Part shown: piece after piece, positions 1,143 to 25,245 of the stretch
Numbering within the stretch: the first letter of the stretch is position 1
Layout: the number at the start of each line of letters is the position of its first letter
Virus record (IMG/VR): IMGVR_UViG_3300009502_000997
Coordinates: 1 to 25,245 of that record
Origin: a virus
Length of the DNA stretch: 25,245 nucleotides
Reading direction: 5' to 3' (one strand)
Notes under the pieces: model-generated
What the model was told of the DNA's origin: nothing
Databases searched by the model: none
The model's input: only the letters and a program-made list of their open reading frames with translations
Position numbers and translations under genes: made by a program

Positions 1143-1745
1143 CTACGAAATTGCGCTAATCACTCCGTTGACCACCGTAATGCTCGTCACCGCTGAAGGA
1201 CCAAAGGAAGGACCTGTTACCGAAGGACCAGTGTAGCCCGTGTAACCAGTCTTACCTGTGTATCCTGTGTATCCTGTGTAGCCAGACGTTCCCGTGTAGC
1301 CAGTATAACCAGTGTAGCCCGTCACTCCAGTATAACCAGTGTAGCCAGTGAAGTTGCCAGGACCCGTATAGCCAGTAGTGCCTATCGGACCAGTGTAGCC
1401 AGTGTAGCCAGTTTTACCTGTGTAGCCAGTTGTACCTGTCGGACCAGTTGTACCAGTGTAGCCAGTATAGCCCGTGATTTGTGGACCTGTGTAGCCAGTG
1501 AAGCCAGTCGCGCCCATCGCTCCTGTGCCCATCGCTGTCCACGAAGGATTCGCAACAATTCCTGTCATCTGCCAGACAGCTGTGCCATCAAGTTCCTCAA
1601 GAACGCACTGTTGTGCGAAGAGGGTCGTGTAGGTCGTGCCAGTAGGTGGGTTGCCAGTGACCGTTCCGAACGTAATCAAATGGTTACCTGTTGCCTCCTG
1701 TTGCTGAATGTCGACTGTCGGAATAAGTGGATTCGTGTATGCCAT
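1143..1745 (-). CDS. short collagen-like fibre protein
   Basis: 200 aa. Residues ~1-75 form a non-repetitive head ([20 protein letters not shown]...), likely the attachment domain. Residues ~76-180 are Gly-X-Thr triplets (GYTGYTG, GFTG, GKTG, with GP interruptions). The C-terminus [13 protein letters not shown] is a short beta segment, as often ends phage collagen-like fibres. Collagen triplets form trimeric rods, so this is probably a virion fibre. It lies between the 464-aa structural gene and the left-edge tail protein. The start at 1745 is preceded by the AT-rich leader AATTAATTATTAACGTT and no Shine-Dalgarno. It shares its repeat chemistry, but not its head, with the longer collagen gene at 10491-11918, so the two fibres probably attach at different sites. 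Confidence 0.9.
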
Positions 1746-1768
1746 AACGTTAATAATTAATTTAATAA

Positions 1769-3163
1769 TTACGATGTGATAATCGTAGTGTCTTGCCCCG
1801 TATACAAGTTGTTAAACAAAGCTTGAACGAGGTCTTCGAATTTCTTAAGGTCTGGGTCATCGCTTCCCAGCGCAATATCCTTGCGGTACTTAATAGCATA
1901 ACGTAAATACCATTTATAGATTTCTCTATAATGCTCAGGGAGCAATTGAGAGAGTGAAGTGACAGGAACAATCTTTTTATAATAGTCAATGTAGACATTG
2001 TTACCTTGCATTGAATCGGGAAGAATTCGGTCAAAGAATAACCTATCCTCAAAGATTGTGTAATAAATAGGTTGAGAAATGGTCGGTCTTGACCATACTC
2101 GTGTGCCTATTGGAATTGCCCTTGTAATTCCAGTTACTCCTGTCAGTTGATTCGTCGTCAGGTCGCACCCAGTATATGCAATCTGCATTATTGTTTGAGT
2201 GTAGTCCGTCGTTGCAACATATGCCACACCAGAAGTTACATCAGGGAAATCCCCTGAACTGTCCAATGTGATTGTCGTTGCACCAATTCCCGATACCGTC
2301 GTTGTATAACCGCCCATTACTGAGAACGCTATTTGATTCCAAGACCTTTTATCAATGTAGCGAAGATTAAATGGAGTAAGTATATTTCCGATAAGAAAAC
2401 GAGCCGCCAACATCGACCTATCAGTCTCGTTATAGTCTATATCATCAGGAAGGTCGACATAATTTGTTCCTGCAAGACATTTAATTGGAAACTCAAACTG
2501 TTGTTGCCATGCATGACGGATTCCATACAACTTCGCTTCAGTGAATTTCCGCGCGTCGTCCACAGCACTGATACAGAAGTTAATATTAATCTTCGGGTCA
2601 TTCTCAGAAACACCCATCGCCATGAGAACAGGATAAATAATATTTGCCACGGAGGTGGGGTCGTAAGAATCAACACTAATCGGGTCGGAAAAATCGGATA
2701 ATAGACCCGATATTGAATTCTTCCATTGAACTTTATAGTAATCAGAAACCAGTCCTGTCGTGTCAAAAATAATCGTTGCCTGTTGAGTCACCTGAAATGT
2801 TGCTGTTGTGAGCGCTACATAAACTCCTGTAAGTGTTGCTGATTTCGATACGACAATTTGGTCGTAATTAAGTTCTTGAACAATATCACCGCGATTGTGA
2901 GCCATCGTTGTTGCCCCTGTAACAAAATTATTGACAGTGTTACTCGAAGAATTAACTATCTCAGAGTTCTCTGCTCCCAGTGGAGAAAGCAACACCTGGA
3001 TAGACCCTACTGTAAAGTCGGTAGCGTTCTCAACAGGGATGGCAATAGCCCCAACTGCGACGTTGTTGCTGATATATGTAGCGACTTTAATATCCAACTG
3101 ATTGGGAATATTAATGGTGTTCCCAATATTATGTTCTACAGTAATTTGGGGGAAGGCAGACAT
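1769..3163 (-). CDS. virion structural protein, possibly head-tail connector or tail component
   Basis: 464 aa, no signal peptide or membrane segment. The N-terminal ~170 residues are beta-rich ([21 protein letters not shown]..., then [18 protein letters not shown]). The middle has alternating strands and helices ([31 protein letters not shown]). The C-terminus is helical ([27 protein letters not shown]). I do not recognise a named family with confidence. Its place next to the gp10-like left-edge gene and the fibre gene would fit a tail or head-completion role. The start follows the SD-less leader TTCTATAATGGATTTTA. It is separated by about 40 nt from the glycan cassette upstream, the first real gap in that run of overlapping genes. 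Confidence 0.8.
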
Positions 3164-3204
3164 TAAAATCCATTATAGAACAGATTCCACCAATGCGGTA
3201 GTGG

Positions 3205-3789
3205 TTATACCCAACTTCTAAGATATTCGTGAATAGTGTGAGTATTTTCAGTGATTTTTGTTATACCTGACTGCCAGTCGAATGGTAGGAACCACTCAGC
3301 AGGATAGATTTTGATGTTATTCACCCACGGTCCCTGCTTGATTATCTCAGTCCACAGCCCCATTCCTGGCTGAAATATAAGTTCCCCTGTCCCTCGGAAG
3401 TTCCTTTGGAGTTTTCCTAGATAGTCTTGAATCAGTGGATGATGAGCAATTGAGCCAATAATTCCGTTTGCTATGAAGTAATTAGCCTCTTCACAGACGA
3501 ATAAGTCATCTCCAAGAACATCATCGAAAGGTTTTAGAACCTTCGTATCTGCATCCAAATAGATGCCGCCGTACTTTTCAAGGTATGCCATTCGTAGGAA
3601 ATCAGAGGCTTTCCCCCAATTATCAACACTGAGACACTCCTCCAAATAAGGACAATCGAATTCATGGAAGTTGTTGTTATCTATCCATAAATGCTCATAG
3701 CTGTCAAGTTTGTGTGTAGCAACACACTCCTTGACCAACTCAGGCATTTCTGGTCCAATCCACATGCTTATAATCCGTTTTGGTATCAT
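3205..3789 (-). CDS. GT32-like glycosyltransferase (DXD sugar-binding family)
   Basis: About 194 aa. It opens with IPKRIISMWIGPEMPE, the usual strand of the GT32/capsular polysaccharide glycosyltransferases. It contains the diagnostic block KASDFLRMAYLEKYGGIYLD followed by ADTKVLKP; the DAD in it is the metal/nucleotide-sugar-binding DXD. The enzyme would move a sugar from a nucleotide donor to an acceptor. I chose the ATG at 3789 because it overlaps the upstream stop as ATGA, like its neighbours; an in-frame ATG at 3810 would add 7 residues and lengthen the overlap. The upstream rmlA-like gene ends in A7-TGA exactly at this start (see the finding on frameshifting), so a fusion product is possible. 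Acceptor and sugar cannot be told from the sequence. Confidence 0.88.
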   Translation of the reverse strand: MIPKRIISMWIGPEMPELVKECVATHKLDSYEHLWIDNNNFHEFDCPYLEECLSVDNWGKASDFLRMAYLEKYGGIYLDADTKVLKPFDDVLGDDLFVCEEANYFIANGIIGSIAHHPLIQDYLGKLQRNFRGTGELIFQPGMGLWTEIIKQGPWVNNIKIYPAEWFLPFDWQSGITKITENTHTIHEYLRSWV

Positions 3790-4460
3790 TTTTTTGTCAA
3801 TGATGCCCATACCGAACTAGCGAGTAGAGAATCAAACGTGCCAGCGTCTGACCAGAAGCCACCAAAATCAATAACCTCTGTTGGGAGATTCTCTAAACAC
3901 CAATTATTCACATCCGTTATCTCTAATTCTCCTCGCGCAGATGGTTCCAGTGTTTTTATGAAAGGAAATATCTCAGGAGTATAGAAATAAAGACCAGTGA
4001 CAGCCTTGTTTGATGACGGGACACTAGGTTTTTCTACAATTTTTCCTTCATAAAAAACTCCGAACCGATTAGGATTTTCTACTTCTTTAAGAACAATCCC
4101 ACACCTTTTGGGTGGAACAACCGAAGAGCCGAAGATATTATCACCAAGGATAACCGCAAATTGTTCCTCTACAAAATCTTCTGCCAAGAGAAGTGCATGG
4201 GCAATCCCCTTCGCTTCTGCTTGGATTCTGTAGGTGATATTAACTTCATACTTTGAACCATCTCCTAGAACTGTAGCAAAACCTCCGATATTTTCACCGC
4301 TAGAAACAATAAGAATATCTGTAATTCCCATTCCCTTAAGAGTCATCAGGGGATAAGTAATCATCGGTCTGTCATACACAGGGAGAAGGTGCTTATTAAA
4401 CAAAAGAGTAAAAGGACTCAACCTCGTTCCCTTTCCTCCTGCAAGAATGATTCCTTTCAT
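3786..4460 (-). CDS. rmlA: RmlA-like glucose-1-phosphate nucleotidyltransferase, C-terminally short
   Basis: 224 aa. The start MKGIILAGGKGTRLSPFT and the later NKHLLPVYDRPMITYPL are the nucleotide- and sugar-phosphate-binding signatures of RmlA/RfbA (glucose-1-phosphate + dTTP giving dTDP-glucose, the first step to dTDP-rhamnose and other deoxysugars). GLYFYTPE, RGELEITDVN and WSDAGTFDSLL follow in family order. Cellular RmlA is usually near 290 aa; this one stops soon after the WxDxGT motif, so the C-terminal helical part is absent, as in short phage or archaeal forms. The ATG at 4460 overlaps the upstream GT2 stop as ATGA; an upstream in-frame ATG at 4472 is less likely. No rmlB, C or D is in the window, so later steps would need the host or genes elsewhere. 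Confidence 0.9.
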   Translation of the reverse strand: MKGIILAGGKGTRLSPFTLLFNKHLLPVYDRPMITYPLMTLKGMGITDILIVSSGENIGGFATVLGDGSKYEVNITYRIQAEAKGIAHALLLAEDFVEEQFAVILGDNIFGSSVVPPKRCGIVLKEVENPNRFGVFYEGKIVEKPSVPSSNKAVTGLYFYTPEIFPFIKTLEPSARGELEITDVNNWCLENLPTEVIDFGGFWSDAGTFDSLLASSVWASLTKK

Positions 4461-5548
4461 GTTGAAGCCCAATTAATAATTCCATTAATGATATCAAGGA
4501 AGTGGAGCTTCGATGCTCCGTATTCTTCTTTCCAAGGAAACTTCGTTGCACGCAACGCCCATTCACGAGCGAGTGTCTTATTCCCATGCCACTGATAGAA
4601 TTGCGCGATACGTTCAGTTGGTCTGCGATTAGTCGGGTCAAGTTCTTGTGCCTTTCGATAGCAGTCAAGTTCAAGGTCAAGTTTACCATCAAGTCCATAA
4701 ATATTCCCAAGAAATAAAAGAGAGTCTAGATGAGTTGGAGTTGTCGGATACTCCTGCGGAGGTAGTTTCATATAGAGGTGGCGAAGAAATTCTTTCTCTG
4801 CCGACTTACCACGACCAGAATAAAACAACTCACGCGCAAAATATTGACATTGTCTGTCTTTGCTCGGACTCAAAAAACAATCAACAGCAAGCCCCTTCAT
4901 ATAACCACCCCTATCAGACTCAGGATTTTGCCAGTGATGCACGGTGAGAGCATCCCTATCAAGACGTAGTCGCTGACCTTGCCCGACGAGCATCTCATGA
5001 ACATTGTTCTCCCAGTGAACGTATCGGCGGTCATAGAATTTGCATTGAAGAAACTCAATATCAGAATTACCTTCGGCATCATGAACAAATACCTGCATAT
5101 GCTCAAATCGAGTAATCGGAACTTCTTTCAAGATAGGTAGTACCTCTAATGCAGCACTCACTTTCTCCAGGTCCATTACCACAGTTTCATCAGCGTCGAG
5201 GCTGAGAATCATGTTGTTCTTCGCCATTTTCGCCACATGGTTGCGCGGGCGATTGAAACAGAAGAACTTGTCTCCTCCCTTCAGAATCGGTTCCTCGTCA
5301 TCAACTACGAACTTCCGATTGACTTCTTGAGCCTGTTTAGGTGTCAATGTTTTGACATATGCCGACCCTACTTCCTGTACGACACAACCATAATTCCTGG
5401 CGATATACACCGTATTATCGGTACTGCCAGTATCAAGAATGCAGACTTCACCACCATTATCTTGGAACTCTTTAAGTGAATCAAGAAGGTGTGGCAATGT
5501 CTTCTCTTCATTCTTTACTACTAGACAGATAGAGAATTTTATGTCCAT
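4457..5548 (-). CDS. GT2 glycosyltransferase with C-terminal TPR-like helices
   Basis: 363 aa. Residues ~4-125 are a GT-A fold of family GT2: FSICLVVKNEEKTLPHLLDS, the GGEVCILDTGSTDNT nucleotide-binding loop, and LDADE at ~117-121 as the metal-binding DXD. The middle keeps WENNVHEMLVGQG. Residues ~230-340 are helical repeats of TPR type (LFLGNIYGLDGKLDLELDCYRKAQELDPTNRRP). Glycosyltransferase plus TPR suggests a protein or large glycan acceptor. It is a clear paralogue of the N-terminal ~340 residues of the next gene upstream (5539-7851), with the same domain order and matching motifs, so the pair arose by duplication. It overlaps that gene by 10 nt and the rmlA-like gene by 4 nt, showing translational coupling. 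Confidence 0.92.
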   Translation of the reverse strand: MDIKFSICLVVKNEEKTLPHLLDSLKEFQDNGGEVCILDTGSTDNTVYIARNYGCVVQEVGSAYVKTLTPKQAQEVNRKFVVDDEEPILKGGDKFFCFNRPRNHVAKMAKNNMILSLDADETVVMDLEKVSAALEVLPILKEVPITRFEHMQVFVHDAEGNSDIEFLQCKFYDRRYVHWENNVHEMLVGQGQRLRLDRDALTVHHWQNPESDRGGYMKGLAVDCFLSPSKDRQCQYFARELFYSGRGKSAEKEFLRHLYMKLPPQEYPTTPTHLDSLLFLGNIYGLDGKLDLELDCYRKAQELDPTNRRPTERIAQFYQWHGNKTLAREWALRATKFPWKEEYGASKLHFLDIINGIINWAST

Positions 5549-7851
5549 ACTCGGTCAGCAAATCCGTACTTAATAGCACGTTCCGCATAGAGTTTATCAT
5601 CAGCATCGTGGCGCGGACCAGAATATGCCTGTTCATAGAGAGCGTCCATATCAGTTTTACTTCCAGCCATCATCGGATGGTCATGAAAGATAGTTGCTTT
5701 TTCTGCCCAACTGTATTTCCCTATTTTTTCTACGCGTGCGCGAAGCTCGTTATCACAGCCAGTATGCTTGTATCCTGTGTGGAATATTTCACCATCCAAG
5801 AACGGCAAAAGCTTTTTAGAAATAAGAAAGTGCGGGGCAACGTGTTCTTTTCTCCAATAGTGGTCGTTCAGACCCACCATTCCATCCATATCAGGGAATC
5901 GGCGAGCCATCTCCCAGACTGCTTCTTTAAGACAGTTCGGTTCCATCACACAATCATTCCCTAAGAAGAGAATCAAATCTCCTGTACTCTCATCTACGCA
6001 TCGCTTTAACATCGTTGGCGCACCAACATTGTTTGGAGGGAAATCATCTGCTTTTACAATGATTTCATAATTGTCGTAACCAGCATTTGCTTTAATAGAT
6101 TCGAGAAGTCGCTGAAGTTTTTCGGGGCGACCAAGAGTAGGAATACAGATAGACACCTTTGGTTTGATAAGCCATTTTACCCAAATAGAATCGTATATTT
6201 CATCTGGTCCCCCGAGTTCCTCATTGACTGCTTGCCTGACTCCAGACCATGCAGACACATAGTCATGCCCACAAAGAAGAATTTTCGCTTTATTCTTCCA
6301 TTTACGAATGTCATTTCTAACCTCCTCATAAGTATGTCCTGCATCGATAAAAACCATATCTACCGACTTATCAGGAACATCGAGAACAGCATCATTGATA
6401 TCTGCTTCAATCATTGTTAAATTCTTCCCCAAAAACTCTTTCAAATTTTCCTTAAACTCTCGAAGAACAGAACCATCTTTTGCTTGAGCGTGAGCATCAG
6501 GTTCAGCTATTGACCCTTTCCATGTGTCTATTGCAGTTACTTTAGGACATCTAGAAGAACATATAGCATGAGTCGACTTCCCCTTCCAAGACCCCAGTTC
6601 TATGACTGATTCCATCTGTTTTGCCGCGTTATAGACAAAATTTTGTTCTACAAATGAGAACCATCCTGATATAAAGTTGGCTGGATAATCAAAATAAAAT
6701 TGAGTATCACGATAATAAACAGGATATTCACGCAGATAATCCAAACAGATAAGGATATGTTTCTGTGCATTTGCGACATCACCAACCCAACCATACGCCC
6801 AATAGAGGAGTTCATACGGTTCTTGTTCGTACATCGCTTTATCGTTGGCATAATAATCGCTCCACGGAATGTCAAGAGATGCCTTAGCGTAGTGAATGAC
6901 CAACTGAGGTTGGTTATTTGACTTATAGAAACGAGCAAGTTTGATAAGAGCTTCCCGACGATTCGGGTCAAGATAAAAAGCTTTGTTGTACATTTCTACT
7001 TGTTTCTCTGCCTGATTCAGCATCCCGTAACAATCACCCATAAATATCATCGACTGTGCACGCTCGGTGAGCCATCCATTCATCGTAATATGCCGCTCGA
7101 ACTCTTTAAGAGCTGACTTCGGATGACCTGTCCACATGAGTTCGCGCGCGAAGTAGTGACTCTGGCGGTCTTTATCTTGATTTTCAAAACAATCCAAAGC
7201 AAGACCAACAAGATAATTACCTCGATGCTCTCCACCTGGAATCTGCCAATGTTCGAGTTTGGCAACTGATTCGTCAAGATATTTTATCTTTGCATTTTGA
7301 CCACCGAGCACTTCATGTACCACCCCAGACCATTGAACTACCCTTCTATCAAATGCCTTACTTTGTACGAATTGTACAGAAGGTCTTCCATATCCATCAT
7401 GAGCAAAAACAAATTGATACTCAAACTGTTGATATCCCTCATCAATAAGTTTATTGATTGCGCTAATGTCAAGTTTTGTATATTCCTCATCAGCATCCAT
7501 CGTAAAAACAAAATCATTCTTCGCTAGAGAAGTGCAGTAATTTCTTGCTGATGCAAAGTCAAATAAACGATTTCCTTCTTTAACTATAGGAGCTTCATCA
7601 CTAACAATAAACCGTTCATTAATTTTATCAGCCGTTTCTTTATCAATAACCTTAATAAATTTTTCACCAACCTCATGAACATTTAATTTACAAAGTCTAC
7701 CGAAATCAGCCGTACCATCAGTAGAACCAGTATCACACACAACAACTTCTCCACCGCACGCTAGAAATTCACTTAAACTTGCTATACATTTAGGGAGTGA
7801 TTTAATTTCATTTCGAGTAATAAGAACAACCGAGAATTTTGGAGTTTCCAT
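5539..7851 (-). CDS. three-part glycan enzyme: GT2-TPR, methyltransferase, second GT2
   Basis: 770 aa. Residues 1-~125 form a GT2 domain (FSVVLITRNEIKSLPKC, VVVCDTGSTDGT at ~37-47, DADE at 119-122). Residues ~225-375 are TPR-like repeats (MGDCYGMLNQAEKQVEMYNKAFYLDPNRRE). Residues ~413-560 are a class I SAM-dependent methyltransferase of the MTase-24 type: SVIELGSWKGKST is motif I, VTAIDTW motif II, and VDMVFIDAGHTYEEV and LLCGHDY follow. Residues ~563-770 are a second GT2 domain (VSICIPTLGRPEKLQRLLES, with GND at 631-633 in place of a DXD). One chain could thus transfer two sugars and methylate one. It is the first gene of the overlapping glycan cassette, 3 nt after the small membrane gene, with no Shine-Dalgarno. 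No internal stops or frame slips are seen, so the fusion looks genuine. Confidence 0.93.
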   Translation of the reverse strand: METPKFSVVLITRNEIKSLPKCIASLSEFLACGGEVVVCDTGSTDGTADFGRLCKLNVHEVGEKFIKVIDKETADKINERFIVSDEAPIVKEGNRLFDFASARNYCTSLAKNDFVFTMDADEEYTKLDISAINKLIDEGYQQFEYQFVFAHDGYGRPSVQFVQSKAFDRRVVQWSGVVHEVLGGQNAKIKYLDESVAKLEHWQIPGGEHRGNYLVGLALDCFENQDKDRQSHYFARELMWTGHPKSALKEFERHITMNGWLTERAQSMIFMGDCYGMLNQAEKQVEMYNKAFYLDPNRREALIKLARFYKSNNQPQLVIHYAKASLDIPWSDYYANDKAMYEQEPYELLYWAYGWVGDVANAQKHILICLDYLREYPVYYRDTQFYFDYPANFISGWFSFVEQNFVYNAAKQMESVIELGSWKGKSTHAICSSRCPKVTAIDTWKGSIAEPDAHAQAKDGSVLREFKENLKEFLGKNLTMIEADINDAVLDVPDKSVDMVFIDAGHTYEEVRNDIRKWKNKAKILLCGHDYVSAWSGVRQAVNEELGGPDEIYDSIWVKWLIKPKVSICIPTLGRPEKLQRLLESIKANAGYDNYEIIVKADDFPPNNVGAPTMLKRCVDESTGDLILFLGNDCVMEPNCLKEAVWEMARRFPDMDGMVGLNDHYWRKEHVAPHFLISKKLLPFLDGEIFHTGYKHTGCDNELRARVEKIGKYSWAEKATIFHDHPMMAGSKTDMDALYEQAYSGPRHDADDKLYAERAIKYGFADRVWT

Positions 7852-10490: not shown

Positions 10491-11918
10491 TTAGGAAGAA
10501 GCAATGCACGTCCATTTTGTAGTGCCTGAGTTGAACATAAACCCTGCCGTTACTGGAGTGGTCGTTGATGCTGAAGTTAGCACAGGAGCAGTCACAGTGC
10601 TATTTTCAGTATTCACCCAAGTAATCGTCTGTGCTGCTGCACTTGAAGGAAGGACTTTCACTATAAGAAGTTGTCCGTCTGTTGCTGAAGTTGTGGTAAT
10701 CGTAATTGTCAAAGTAGCTGCGCTATCGTTCGTTACCTTATCAAGTCGATAGGTGATAGGAACTGTGGCAGCGTTTCCTGAAGCGGTAATATTGTTTTGT
10801 GTCCAAATGGTATTGGTAACATTTTGTGGTCCAGTATATCCTGTATAACCAGTGTAACCAGTAACGTTTGCAGGACCTGTGTAGCCAGTATATCCAGTTG
10901 CCCCATTTCCTGTATATCCTGTGTATCCTGTAGCAAGTCCTTGAGGACCTGTATAGCCAGTGTAGCCAGTTTTACCTGTGTATCCTGTGTAGCCAGTAAA
11001 ACCAGTGAAGCCTGTCGTACCAGTGTATCCTGTATAGCCAGTTAATCCTTGAGGACCAGTATAACCTGTATAACCAGTGATGTTCGGACCAGTGTAGCCA
11101 GTAAAACCAGTGAAGCCTGTCGTACCAGTGTATCCCGTATAGCCAGTTAATCCTTGAGGACCAGTATAACCTGTATAACCAGTGATGTTCGGACCAGTGT
11201 AGCCAGTGTAGCCAGTCTTGCCTGTATAACCAGTGTAACCAGTGAAGCCAGTAAATCCTGTCGTACCAGTGTAACCAGTATATCCAGTAAAATTTCCAGC
11301 TCCAGTATATCCTGTATAACCCGTATAGCCTGTGATTTGAGGACCTGTATATCCAGTATAACCAGTAGAACTGACTCCTGTATAGCCCGTATATCCAGTG
11401 AAGCCTGTGTATCCTGTAGCAAGTCCTTGAGGACCAGTGTAGCCAGTATAACCAGTATAGCCAGTCGTCCCTGTGTATCCTGTGTATCCTGTGAAGCCTG
11501 TGAAGCCAGTTGTATTTGGACCTGTATAGCCAGTGTAGCCCGTCACTCCTGTATAACCAGTGTAGCCAGTGTAGCCAGTTGTATTTGGACCTGTATAGCC
11601 AGTGTAGCCAGTCGTGCTCGGACCAGTGTAACCAGTATAACCAGTCTTGCCTGTATAACCAGTGTAACCAGTATAACCAGTCGTGCTCGGACCAGTGTAG
11701 CCAGTATAGCCAGTCGCGCCTGTTGGACCAGCTGGTCCAGCAGCTCCTGAATTAACCCACGCAGAAGTCAATGGGTCCCATACCCAAACAGTACCCGTCG
11801 CACCAACGACAGCAAACACTCCTGGAATTCCAGTAGGATACGCTGCAACGAGGGCGGCGTAGGTAGCAAAATATCCAAGATTATTCGGGTCTCCTAATTT
11901 ATTTGCGAGGTACGTCAT
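10491..11918 (-). CDS. long collagen-like fibre protein
   Basis: 475 aa. Residues 1-~60 are a compact head ([34 protein letters not shown]) of a type common at the N-termini of phage fibre proteins. Residues ~60-365 hold roughly a hundred Gly-X-Y triplets, mostly Gly-Tyr-Thr and Gly-Phe-Thr, broken by GPQGL, GPNTT, GPNIT and GKTG. The C-terminal ~110 residues are a beta-rich knob ([23 protein letters not shown]...). Triplets of this kind form a trimeric collagen helix, so this should be a long rod on the virion. The Y position is almost always Thr, the residue that carries O-glycans in Bacillus BclA; see findings. It overlaps the upstream coiled-coil gene's stop as ATGA. It contains a near-perfect 105-bp tandem duplication. 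Confidence 0.93.
10987..11196 (-). repeat. 105-bp tandem duplication inside the long collagen gene
   Basis: Two head-to-tail copies, 10987-11091 and 11092-11196, differ by a single base (tatcctgtat against tatcccgtat). Each encodes 35 residues, so the duplication keeps frame. Other triplets in the gene differ at synonymous sites, so this copy pair is recent. Confidence 0.9.
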
Positions 11919-24316: not shown

Positions 24317-24361
24317 CTTGACTTTTGCATACAAGAGGAGTATACTTACCGCTATCAGTGC
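24309..24361 (+). promoter_or_regulatory. repeated 9-mer flanking a promoter (operator pair)
   Basis: TATCAGTGC at 24309-24317 and again at 24353-24361, 44 bp apart (about four helical turns). The first abuts the -35 and the second covers the expected start site, a typical layout for a looping or blocking repressor. Confidence 0.55.
24318..24346 (+). promoter_or_regulatory. sigma70-like promoter of the ubiquitin-like gene
   Basis: TTGACT (24318-24323), 17-bp spacer ending GAGGAG, TATACT (24341-24346). A start near 24353 gives a ~39-nt leader to the ATG at 24392. Confidence 0.7.
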
Positions 24362-24391: not shown

Positions 24392-24634
24392 ATGCAAAAA
24401 GCAACAGGAAGTGCACCAGCCGGGAATAATATCGCAGTATCGGTTGTAGCCTTCGGCAATGACCCTATCGCGCTATTACTCCCAGTAGGCGCAACAGTAG
24501 CGAGCGCTCTCGCACAAGCGGGTATCGCACGCGGGGCATCCGACATTTTCGTGAGCGGACAGGACGCGGAAGATGCGGACATCCTTGAAAGCGGGGATGT
24601 ATTGAGTATCGTGAGTGCAAAGCAAGCGGGATAA
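24392..24634 (+). CDS. ubiquitin/ThiS/MoaD-like beta-grasp protein
   Basis: 80 aa. The pattern is that of small beta-grasp sulfur-carrier/ubiquitin-like proteins: IAVSVVAFGNDPIALLLPVGATVASALAQAGI is strand, strand, helix; then DIFVSGQDAEDADILESGDVLSIVSAK gives the V(n)G and LxxGDxLSIV strands typical of ThiS/MoaD relatives. The first ~13 residues are an extra polar tail. The C-terminus is SAKQAG: it ends in Gly but lacks the usual Gly-Gly, so conjugation or sulfur carriage is not assured. No thiamin or molybdopterin genes are near. It has its own strong promoter, no Shine-Dalgarno, and stands directly before a coiled-coil gene that may be its partner. The fold is fairly sure; the function is open. 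Confidence 0.78.
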   Translation: MQKATGSAPAGNNIAVSVVAFGNDPIALLLPVGATVASALAQAGIARGASDIFVSGQDAEDADILESGDVLSIVSAKQAG

Positions 24635-24651
24635 TAGGACATAGACAGGGC

Positions 24652-24671
24652 GTGCGATAGAAATATCGTGC
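24652..24671 (+). promoter_or_regulatory. hairpin with GAAA tetraloop
   Basis: GTGCGATA and TATCGTGC pair over 8 bp (two G-U pairs) around GAAA, a GNRA loop. It lies between the ubiquitin-like gene and the coiled-coil gene, 40 nt before the next ATG; no U-tract follows. Confidence 0.5.
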
Positions 24672-24710
24672 GACCCAGTGTGCGCCTTATACACGAACGA
24701 CACTGCAACT

Positions 24711-25245
24711 ATGATAAAAGCAAATGCAACAAAACCGAGGGCGAGCGCGCTTGAAATAGAAGCCGATGATATAGGCGTGGTAGCCGATTACCTTACGCGT
24801 GCGAGTGATATCGAGCACAGACGAAAAGAGGAACGTGTGGCGAGTATTCAGAACAACATCCGAGATTGTGGATTTTATGTTGAAAGAAGAAGAGGCGAAA
24901 TCGCAGATTATGAGCAAGAAATAGAGAAAAGCAAGAGCGAATTGGGCACGATAGAGCACGAAATCGCCAACCTACCGCCGACCCGCACGATTACCCTAAA
25001 TGAAGCGCGAGCAGATATACAGCGTGCGCTCGCGTTGCCGTTTGTGGAGAATATCGCCATTGAAAGAATAGACGACAAGGTTTATATCGTGGCTACGACC
25101 CGAAACGGCGTGCTGACCACGACACTAAAACGCAAGTTTAGCCGAGCCGAGAAATGGTATCGCGTAAAGCCGTATAAACTCGCGTTGCCGACATATAAAA
25201 TCCGTATCGGCACGGCGTTGCGCAATAGCATCACACAACACGAGG
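24711..25245 (+). CDS. coiled-coil protein with C-terminal domain, cut by window edge
   Basis: 178 codons are visible, with no stop. Residues ~35-90 are coiled coil (EHRRKEERVASIQNNI, YEQEIEKSKSELGTIEHEI). From ~93 a globular alpha/beta part begins with a helix (LNEARADIQRALALPFV), then strands NIAIERIDDKVYIVATTR, LTTTLKRKF, and KPYKLALPTYKIRIG. This helix-strand-strand-strand run ending in 'LPxYxIxIG' resembles the front half of E2/RWD-type domains seen beside prokaryotic ubiquitin-like genes. The catalytic Cys region would lie outside the window, so this is only a hypothesis. The start at 24711 is the first ATG after the ubiquitin-like gene; no Shine-Dalgarno. Confidence 0.8.
   Translation, partial: MIKANATKPRASALEIEADDIGVVADYLTRASDIEHRRKEERVASIQNNIRDCGFYVERRRGEIADYEQEIEKSKSELGTIEHEIANLPPTRTITLNEARADIQRALALPFVENIAIERIDDKVYIVATTRNGVLTTTLKRKFSRAEKWYRVKPYKLALPTYKIRIGTALRNSITQHE

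Follow-up and report, generated by a model that had tools for sequence, protein, structure and literature searches.

Genes and features at the right end of the window

The window, meaning the whole stretch of DNA that was analysed (25,245 nucleotides), corresponds to positions 1 to 25,245 of the IMG/VR virus record IMGVR_UViG_3300009502_000997. It belongs to the genome of a tailed phage: PHROGs recognises its terminase large subunit (phrog_2, 6.5e-26). Its late genes read leftward, and the two genes at the right edge, which encode a ubiquitin-like protein (Ubl) and part of an E2-like protein, read rightward. The record itself stops at 25245, inside the second of these genes, and no JAB or E1 gene was seen in it. 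A first-pass annotation had described a beta-grasp Ubl followed by an ORF with a coiled coil and an alpha/beta part at this edge, and this description held. The features are:

24318..24346, plus strand: putative sigma-70 promoter of the cassette, TTGACT-N17-TATACT (pattern and conservation in the related contig L002)
24392..24634, plus strand: ubiquitin-like protein, predicted beta-grasp, 80 aa, C-terminus KQAG followed by the stop
24648..24676, plus strand: RNA hairpin between the Ubl and E2 genes, fold z -3.1 in the window
24711..25245, plus strand: N-terminal 178 aa of a coiled-coil and E2-like protein, cut by the record end before the putative HPH...CLG active site

Elsewhere in the window, two putative tail or fibre proteins (10491-11918 and 1143-1745, minus strand) contain long collagen-like GYTGYTG repeats, and a sugar nucleotidyltransferase and glycosyltransferases, named by eye, are found between virion genes (3205-7851, minus strand).

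Scanning IMG/VR with the window Ubl or the E2-like protein returned one contig, L002, and the JAB protein of L002 then led to L004. L002 comes from the same kind of phage: its terminase is 93% identical at the protein level, and its small genes and Ubl gene are colinear with those of the window. The window Ubl shows 86% identity to that of L002 and 64% to that of L004, while for the E2-like fragment the identity is 53% with the L002 protein, which has 330 aa, and about 42% with the L004 counterpart. This identity, together with the colinearity of both ORFs with their counterparts in L002 and L004, shows that the two are real genes. When viral records were scanned again with alignments of Ubl, JAB and E2, L002 and L004 were the only matches, and scans of bacterial genomes with JAB and E1 alignments gave no relative, hence no host or chromosomal source was found.

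The Ubl gene had also been assigned its own promoter. The pattern is present and near-consensus, and TTGACA-N17-TATACT occupies the matching position in L002; no such pattern was found in L004. With 8 promoter-like sites observed in the region and 7.1 expected by shuffling, the bare pattern is at chance level, and the call is supported by its conservation in L002, not by the pattern alone.

The hairpin between the Ubl and E2 genes occurs in all three phages with differing sequences (z -3.1 in the window, -5.6 in L002 and -3.5 in L004), and no U-run terminator was reported at this site. It might be an attenuator or an mRNA-stability element, which through less read-through or a stabler Ubl message would yield more tag than enzyme; this possibility is inferred.

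The ubiquitin-like protein

Neither the Ubl nor the E2-like protein has a relevant family match in Pfam, PHROGs, NCBIfam or PADLOC scans. The AF2 model of the Ubl, made with the three aligned Ubls, has a strand-strand-helix-strand-strand arrangement and a mean pLDDT of 70; it is one of five models, the remaining four being at 43-46. Foldseek ranks SUMO, Caldiarchaeum ubiquitin, Ubl domains and MoaD at the top (probability 1.00, best E 4e-3). In VIA-align the leading match is a MoaD-type chain (Z 7.3); SAMP1 (Z 6.7) and Urm1 come close to it, and other beta-grasp proteins are also listed. The beta-grasp fold is a prediction of this model. Profile comparison of the Ubls across phage groups was uninformative. 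Such an outcome is common for divergent proteins of 80 residues.

The C-terminal AG is invariant in the three phages, and in L004 it is followed by two residues (NR), as if trimmed. That the window Ubl ends in QAG and not GG had been raised in the first-pass annotation as an objection to conjugation. The objection is weak, since the Ubls of the plasmid PRTRC cassette end in one Gly, Cap2 needs only one C-terminal Gly or Ala to conjugate cGAS (PMC10097602), and the L004 protein appears as if trimmed. On the evidence of PRTRC protein C and cGAS, a QAG end was not accepted as ruling out conjugation.

The coiled-coil and E2-like protein

The ATG at 24711 is the likely start of the second gene, rather than the upstream GTG at 24678, because the initial MIKA is invariant in the three phages. 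An N-terminal coiled coil is predicted in the model of the relative, with helices at 18-52 and 64-86. Strands resembling those of E2/RWD folds had been proposed for NIAIERIDDKVYIVATT and LPTYKIRIG; both are present in the window and coincide with strands predicted in the relative's model (E112-120, E123-130 and E162-167), and the fold has low-confidence support only.

The L002 protein of 330 aa comprises the coiled coil, the alpha/beta region, HQPHPHWGTPSVRGEIDQWRGICLGEFE, helices and an acidic Cys-rich tail. Beyond the point at which the window is cut, its gene encodes HPHWGTPSVRGEIDQWRGICLG, carrying HPH...GICLG, and the L004 protein contains HEPHAHWGTTSASEGQYRAICLGEYE, with the motif HAHWG...AICLG. 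A check set in advance, that the truncated gene should continue with HPH or HxH and then Cys-Leu-Gly, is met in L002 and L004 and cannot be read in the window; the catalytic half of the window's protein is missing there and is inferred from the relatives. Eukaryotic E2s have the active-site pattern HPN...G-x-[IL]-C-L. Judged from sequence alone, the HPH of the L002-type E2 would stand in place of this HPN.

In its strict form, H[PA]H..[ILV]C[LF]G, the motif picks out only four candidate E2s among the 151,731 translated residues of the examined loci. Each of the four genes comes after a Ubl gene and before a JAB gene, an E1 gene or both. The motif arose in 1/60,000 shuffles of three candidate E2 proteins. 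It was partly derived from these same E2s, so that specificity is shown without independent proof.

The AF2 model of the L002 E2 is poor (mean pLDDT 55) and has no significant Foldseek match. In VIA-align it matches mostly E2/UEV folds, with the Tsg101 UEV at Z 6.0 over 126 residues and further matches to the E2 part of Cap2, UBE2S, Ubc12 and UFC1, a Z of 6 being under the level that rules out a chance arrangement. CorA rows in the same list were set aside, as they are due to the coiled coil.

An alternative is that the alpha/beta domain joined to the coiled coil in the second protein is unrelated to E2, and that HPH...CLG is a metal site and not an E2 active site. The low-confidence model, the absence of a significant Foldseek match and the Cys-rich tail speak for it. 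It is contradicted by the place of the gene between Ubl and JAB/E1 in the cassettes, by the motif and by the predominance of E2/UEV folds among the structural matches, and there is very little reason to favour it. The E2 assignment retained here rests on the motif, the position, a low-confidence model and weak profile matches, which give a fair indication and not proof, the fold being the weakest link.

The four-gene cassette of L002 and L004

In L002 the genes of Ubl, the coiled-coil and E2-like protein, JAB and ThiF/E1 read rightward in this order, all adjacent, and L004 holds the matching four adjacent genes in the same order. The JAB and ThiF/E1 genes that the first-pass annotation had looked for downstream are thus found in both relatives. 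L004 has only the Ubl and E2 genes in common with the window, and with L002 it shares the four cassette genes and an HNH-like ORF (named by eye); its terminase, identified by eye, does not match that of the window. With the same cassette in different surroundings, the cassette therefore travels, or is kept, independently of neighbouring genes. L004 also encodes a GroEL/Cpn60-type chaperonin (1561-3168, minus strand; Pfam Cpn60_TCP1 1.7e-18).

The JAB protein of L002 matches Pfam Prok-JAB (1.8e-5) and contains the exact JAMM motif H-x-H-x7-S-x2-D (HSHHTMPAFFSERD). Its best solved structural match is the Rpn11 homologue of Caldiarchaeum, and a long extension follows the domain.

The E1 of the relatives matches Pfam ThiF (1.4e-16), and its best solved matches are UBA5 and also ThiF, Cap2, NEDD8 E1 and BubCD. 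The nucleotide-site motifs GVGTIG, NIATQAY and CVDSIDAR, which correspond to GxGxxG, N-x3-[QR] and D-x3-[AV]R, are present (relatives L002 and L004 only).

These genes could in principle form a sulfur-carrier system, in which the Ubl would be thiocarboxylated by the ThiF-like protein and would serve as sulfur donor for a cofactor, a nucleotide or cysteine, JAB acting as a hydrolase, like ThiS/ThiF or CysO/Mec+. The ThiF-type E1 without a large second domain, the presence of MoaD and SAMP1 among the best matches of the Ubl model and the annotation of the relatives' records as 'thiamine biosynthesis protein' are consistent with this. However, the examined loci showed no gene for thiamine, molybdopterin or cysteine synthesis adjoining the cassette, no phage E1 examined has the Zn-binding CxxC pairs found in E. 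coli MoeB and ThiF, and an E2-like gene with HPH...CLG is not known to play a role in sulfur transfer. The sulfur-carrier explanation is accordingly regarded as very improbable. Databases label the counterparts in phages of unrelated groups 'thiamine biosynthesis' or 'hypothetical', and the former annotation of the cassette E1s is likely to be wrong.

Counterparts in other phages

A tblastn search of 50,697 phage records with E1 matched 82 of them. The same search with Ubl and E2 gave nothing, known phages being reached by E1 and, weakly, JAB only. The names Ubl and E2 in these other phages are based on position, motif and inspection by eye.

The order Ubl-like, E2-like (HSH...C[TL]G), JAB, ThiF is found in crAss001 (gp79-gp76), DAC15 and Dulem virus 41, and likewise in three uncultured contigs (L013-L015); in bajarodcaudo virus the last three genes (E2-like, JAB and ThiF) were identified. 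The cassette of the crAss-like phages sits among replication genes, with genes for primase and uracil-DNA glycosylase as neighbours. In crAss-like cassettes E1 is followed by a gene whose function is unknown (L005 5669-6481, L008 5684-6433, L014 10687-11433) and which is possibly a fifth component.

Flavobacterium phage FpV21 has the Ubl, E2, JAB and E1 set with an interrupted JAB gene. The gene is split by a group I intron (L018, 2991-3939; Rfam RF00028, E 2.3e-9, just below the gathering score), inserted exactly at the catalytic HSH codons of JAB. The opposite strand of the insertion encodes a LAGLIDADG endonuclease. The crAss-like (crAss001) and Flavobacterium cassettes share the gene order of L002 and differ in the long C-terminal extension of the Ubl and the N-terminal extension of several E1s.

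Locus L010 contains Ubl, an E2 with zinc-finger-like Cys pairs, JAB and E1. In this E2-like protein (4473-5627) the E2 part is joined to a series of CxxC pairs that look like RING/treble-clef zinc fingers. The protein has no Pfam match and could be an E2-E3 fusion. Locus L011 contains JAB, E1 and a Ubl ending LKGA.

Xanthomonas phage PhiXhv-12 encodes a Ubl ending SGG, a coiled-coil-E2-Cys-rich protein and E1, and Erwinia phage Ep032, with a genome of about 227 kb, encodes E2 and E1. Both are like the window type in having a coiled coil, an E2-like part and a Cys-rich tail followed by E1, with the PhiXhv-12 Ubl upstream; this Ubl ends in GG, unlike the QAG of the window type. No JAB gene was seen in either phage within the 10.6 kb examined.

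E1 profile matches from the window family to other phages are firm (1e-11 to 8e-26), as is the JAB match to crAss-like phages (1.5e-12). The E2 match between the window type and the Xanthomonas phage is weak (E 4.5e-4 over 167 columns), and profile comparison did not link the window-type E2 to crAss-like or PRTRC E2s. In a tree of 18 E1s, a branch with support 87/84 (88% of bootstrap trees) separates the 13 phage E1s from PRTRC, ThiF, MoeB and TcdA, which is moderate evidence because of long branches and few outgroups. The gene content, order and motifs of the cassette and its spread over several phage groups are shown by these data, as is the fold of the Ubl at the level of prediction.

Comparison with known systems

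Ubl-E2-JAB-E1 cassettes of bacteria and plasmids are already known. The PRTRC plasmid cassette, which fits operon type 6d (Iyer, Burroughs and Aravind 2006, PMC1779556), has the order C (Ubl), F (hypothetical gene), B (E2), A (JAB) and ThiF, and the phage order matches it. Both have separate genes and a Ubl with a single C-terminal Gly (protein C in PRTRC), and the PRTRC JAMM motif HTHGRMPAFFSGVD is nearly identical to that of the phage. The phage cassette differs from PRTRC in its E2, which combines HPH...CLG with a fused coiled coil and Cys-rich tail, in the long extension of its JAB after the domain, and in its E1s, which fall outside PRTRC in the tree. Against the curated cut-offs of the family models, phage proteins reach 18.6 of 101.8 bits for PRTRC_A and 45.8 of 144.75 for PRTRC_ThiF, and the B and C models have no match in them. 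No PRTRC ParB or F protein was noticed among the ORFs of L002 and L004, both contigs ending soon after the cassette. By analogy the phage cassette may work in a similar way, but it is not classed as PRTRC, as the scores are far under the cut-offs. The phage Ubl treated in PMC1779556, lambda tail assembly protein I, is distinct from the cassette Ubl.

The bacterial systems Bil (BilABCD), type II CBASS Cap2/Cap3 and Bub have in common with the phage cassette, as it is inferred here, a tag, an E1, an E2 and a JAB. In Cap2 of CBASS, E1 and E2 are fused and the tag is cGAS, not a beta-grasp protein (PMC10097602), and BilB has a CEHH site (PMC11354881). Among PADLOC models, the phage E1 matches BilD (3e-7) and many CBASS E1-E2 models; with the Bil and type II CBASS models the matches are confined to E1, that of JAB being weak (0.03) and those of E2 and Ubl absent.

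Proposed function

The end of the window is likely (probability roughly 0.8) to be the left half of a phage-encoded conjugation cassette of Ubl, E2, JAB isopeptidase and E1, conjugation itself being inferred. A phage Ubl-conjugation module, the idea put forward in the first-pass annotation, is thus supported via the relatives, with an E2 fold that rests on a low-confidence model.

In the proposed mechanism, the ThiF-type E1 would adenylate the C-terminal Gly of the Ubl and accept the Ubl on a cysteine, which judged by position would be C170 in the L002 E1, and would then hand it to the Cys of HPH...[IL]CLG in E2 (C226 of L002). The coiled coil and Cys-rich tail of E2 may select the target or dimerise E2. 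The JAB protein would trim the Ubl precursor, as for the NR after AG in L004, and later remove the tag. It is also hypothesized that the cassette is expressed early and that it modifies proteins of the host or the phage, either during takeover or to counter host defences. Early expression is probable, as the cassette is oriented away from the late genes and its promoter is conserved in the window and L002. Catalysis, timing, target and benefit are inferred, as is the E2 fold; there is no experiment, no covalent-conjugate data and no substrate.

A rival to this role, differing in purpose and not in chemistry, is superinfection exclusion, in which the Ubl would be conjugated onto structural proteins of competing phages, as in the bacterial Bil defence, and would not directly benefit the phage that carries the cassette. 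It is supported by the four inferred activities being those of Bil and by the E1 matches to BilD and CBASS models given above. However, the crAss-like cassette lies among replication genes and not in a defence-like locus. Superinfection exclusion is considered unlikely; it remains possible and is not ruled out, there being no direct test. Takeover or counter-defence is the preferred role on account of the gene orientation, away from the late genes, and of the location of the crAss-like copies among replication genes.

Significance

No description of phage Ubl-E2-JAB-E1 cassettes was found in the open-access literature searched (subscription papers and preprints were outside the search), and those of crAss-like phages (crAss001 gp79-gp76) and Flavobacterium phages are not described as such there. 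The 'Jab' of a Crassvirales paper is a phage name, not a JAB protein. The phage-borne form with a coiled-coil-fused E2 and its spread over cultured phages are undescribed in that literature.

A bolder reading, towards which the balance leans only slightly, is that several unrelated tailed-phage lineages (crAss-like, Flavobacterium, Xanthomonas/Erwinia jumbo and the uncultured group of the window) carry a complete, reversible Ubl conjugation pathway that would reprogram the infected cell, a pathway of viral lineage with its own E1 branch. Bacteria deploy ubiquitin-like conjugation against phages, as in CBASS Cap2 and Bil. If the bolder reading is true, the phage cascade would be the first full Ubl-E1-E2-deconjugase cascade encoded by a virus, none earlier being known to us. 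The cultured carriers crAss001, DAC15, FpV21 and PhiXhv-12 (JAB not seen in the last) would allow phage protein tagging to be tested in laboratory systems, and with it the question of whether bacterial viruses tag proteins to control the cell.
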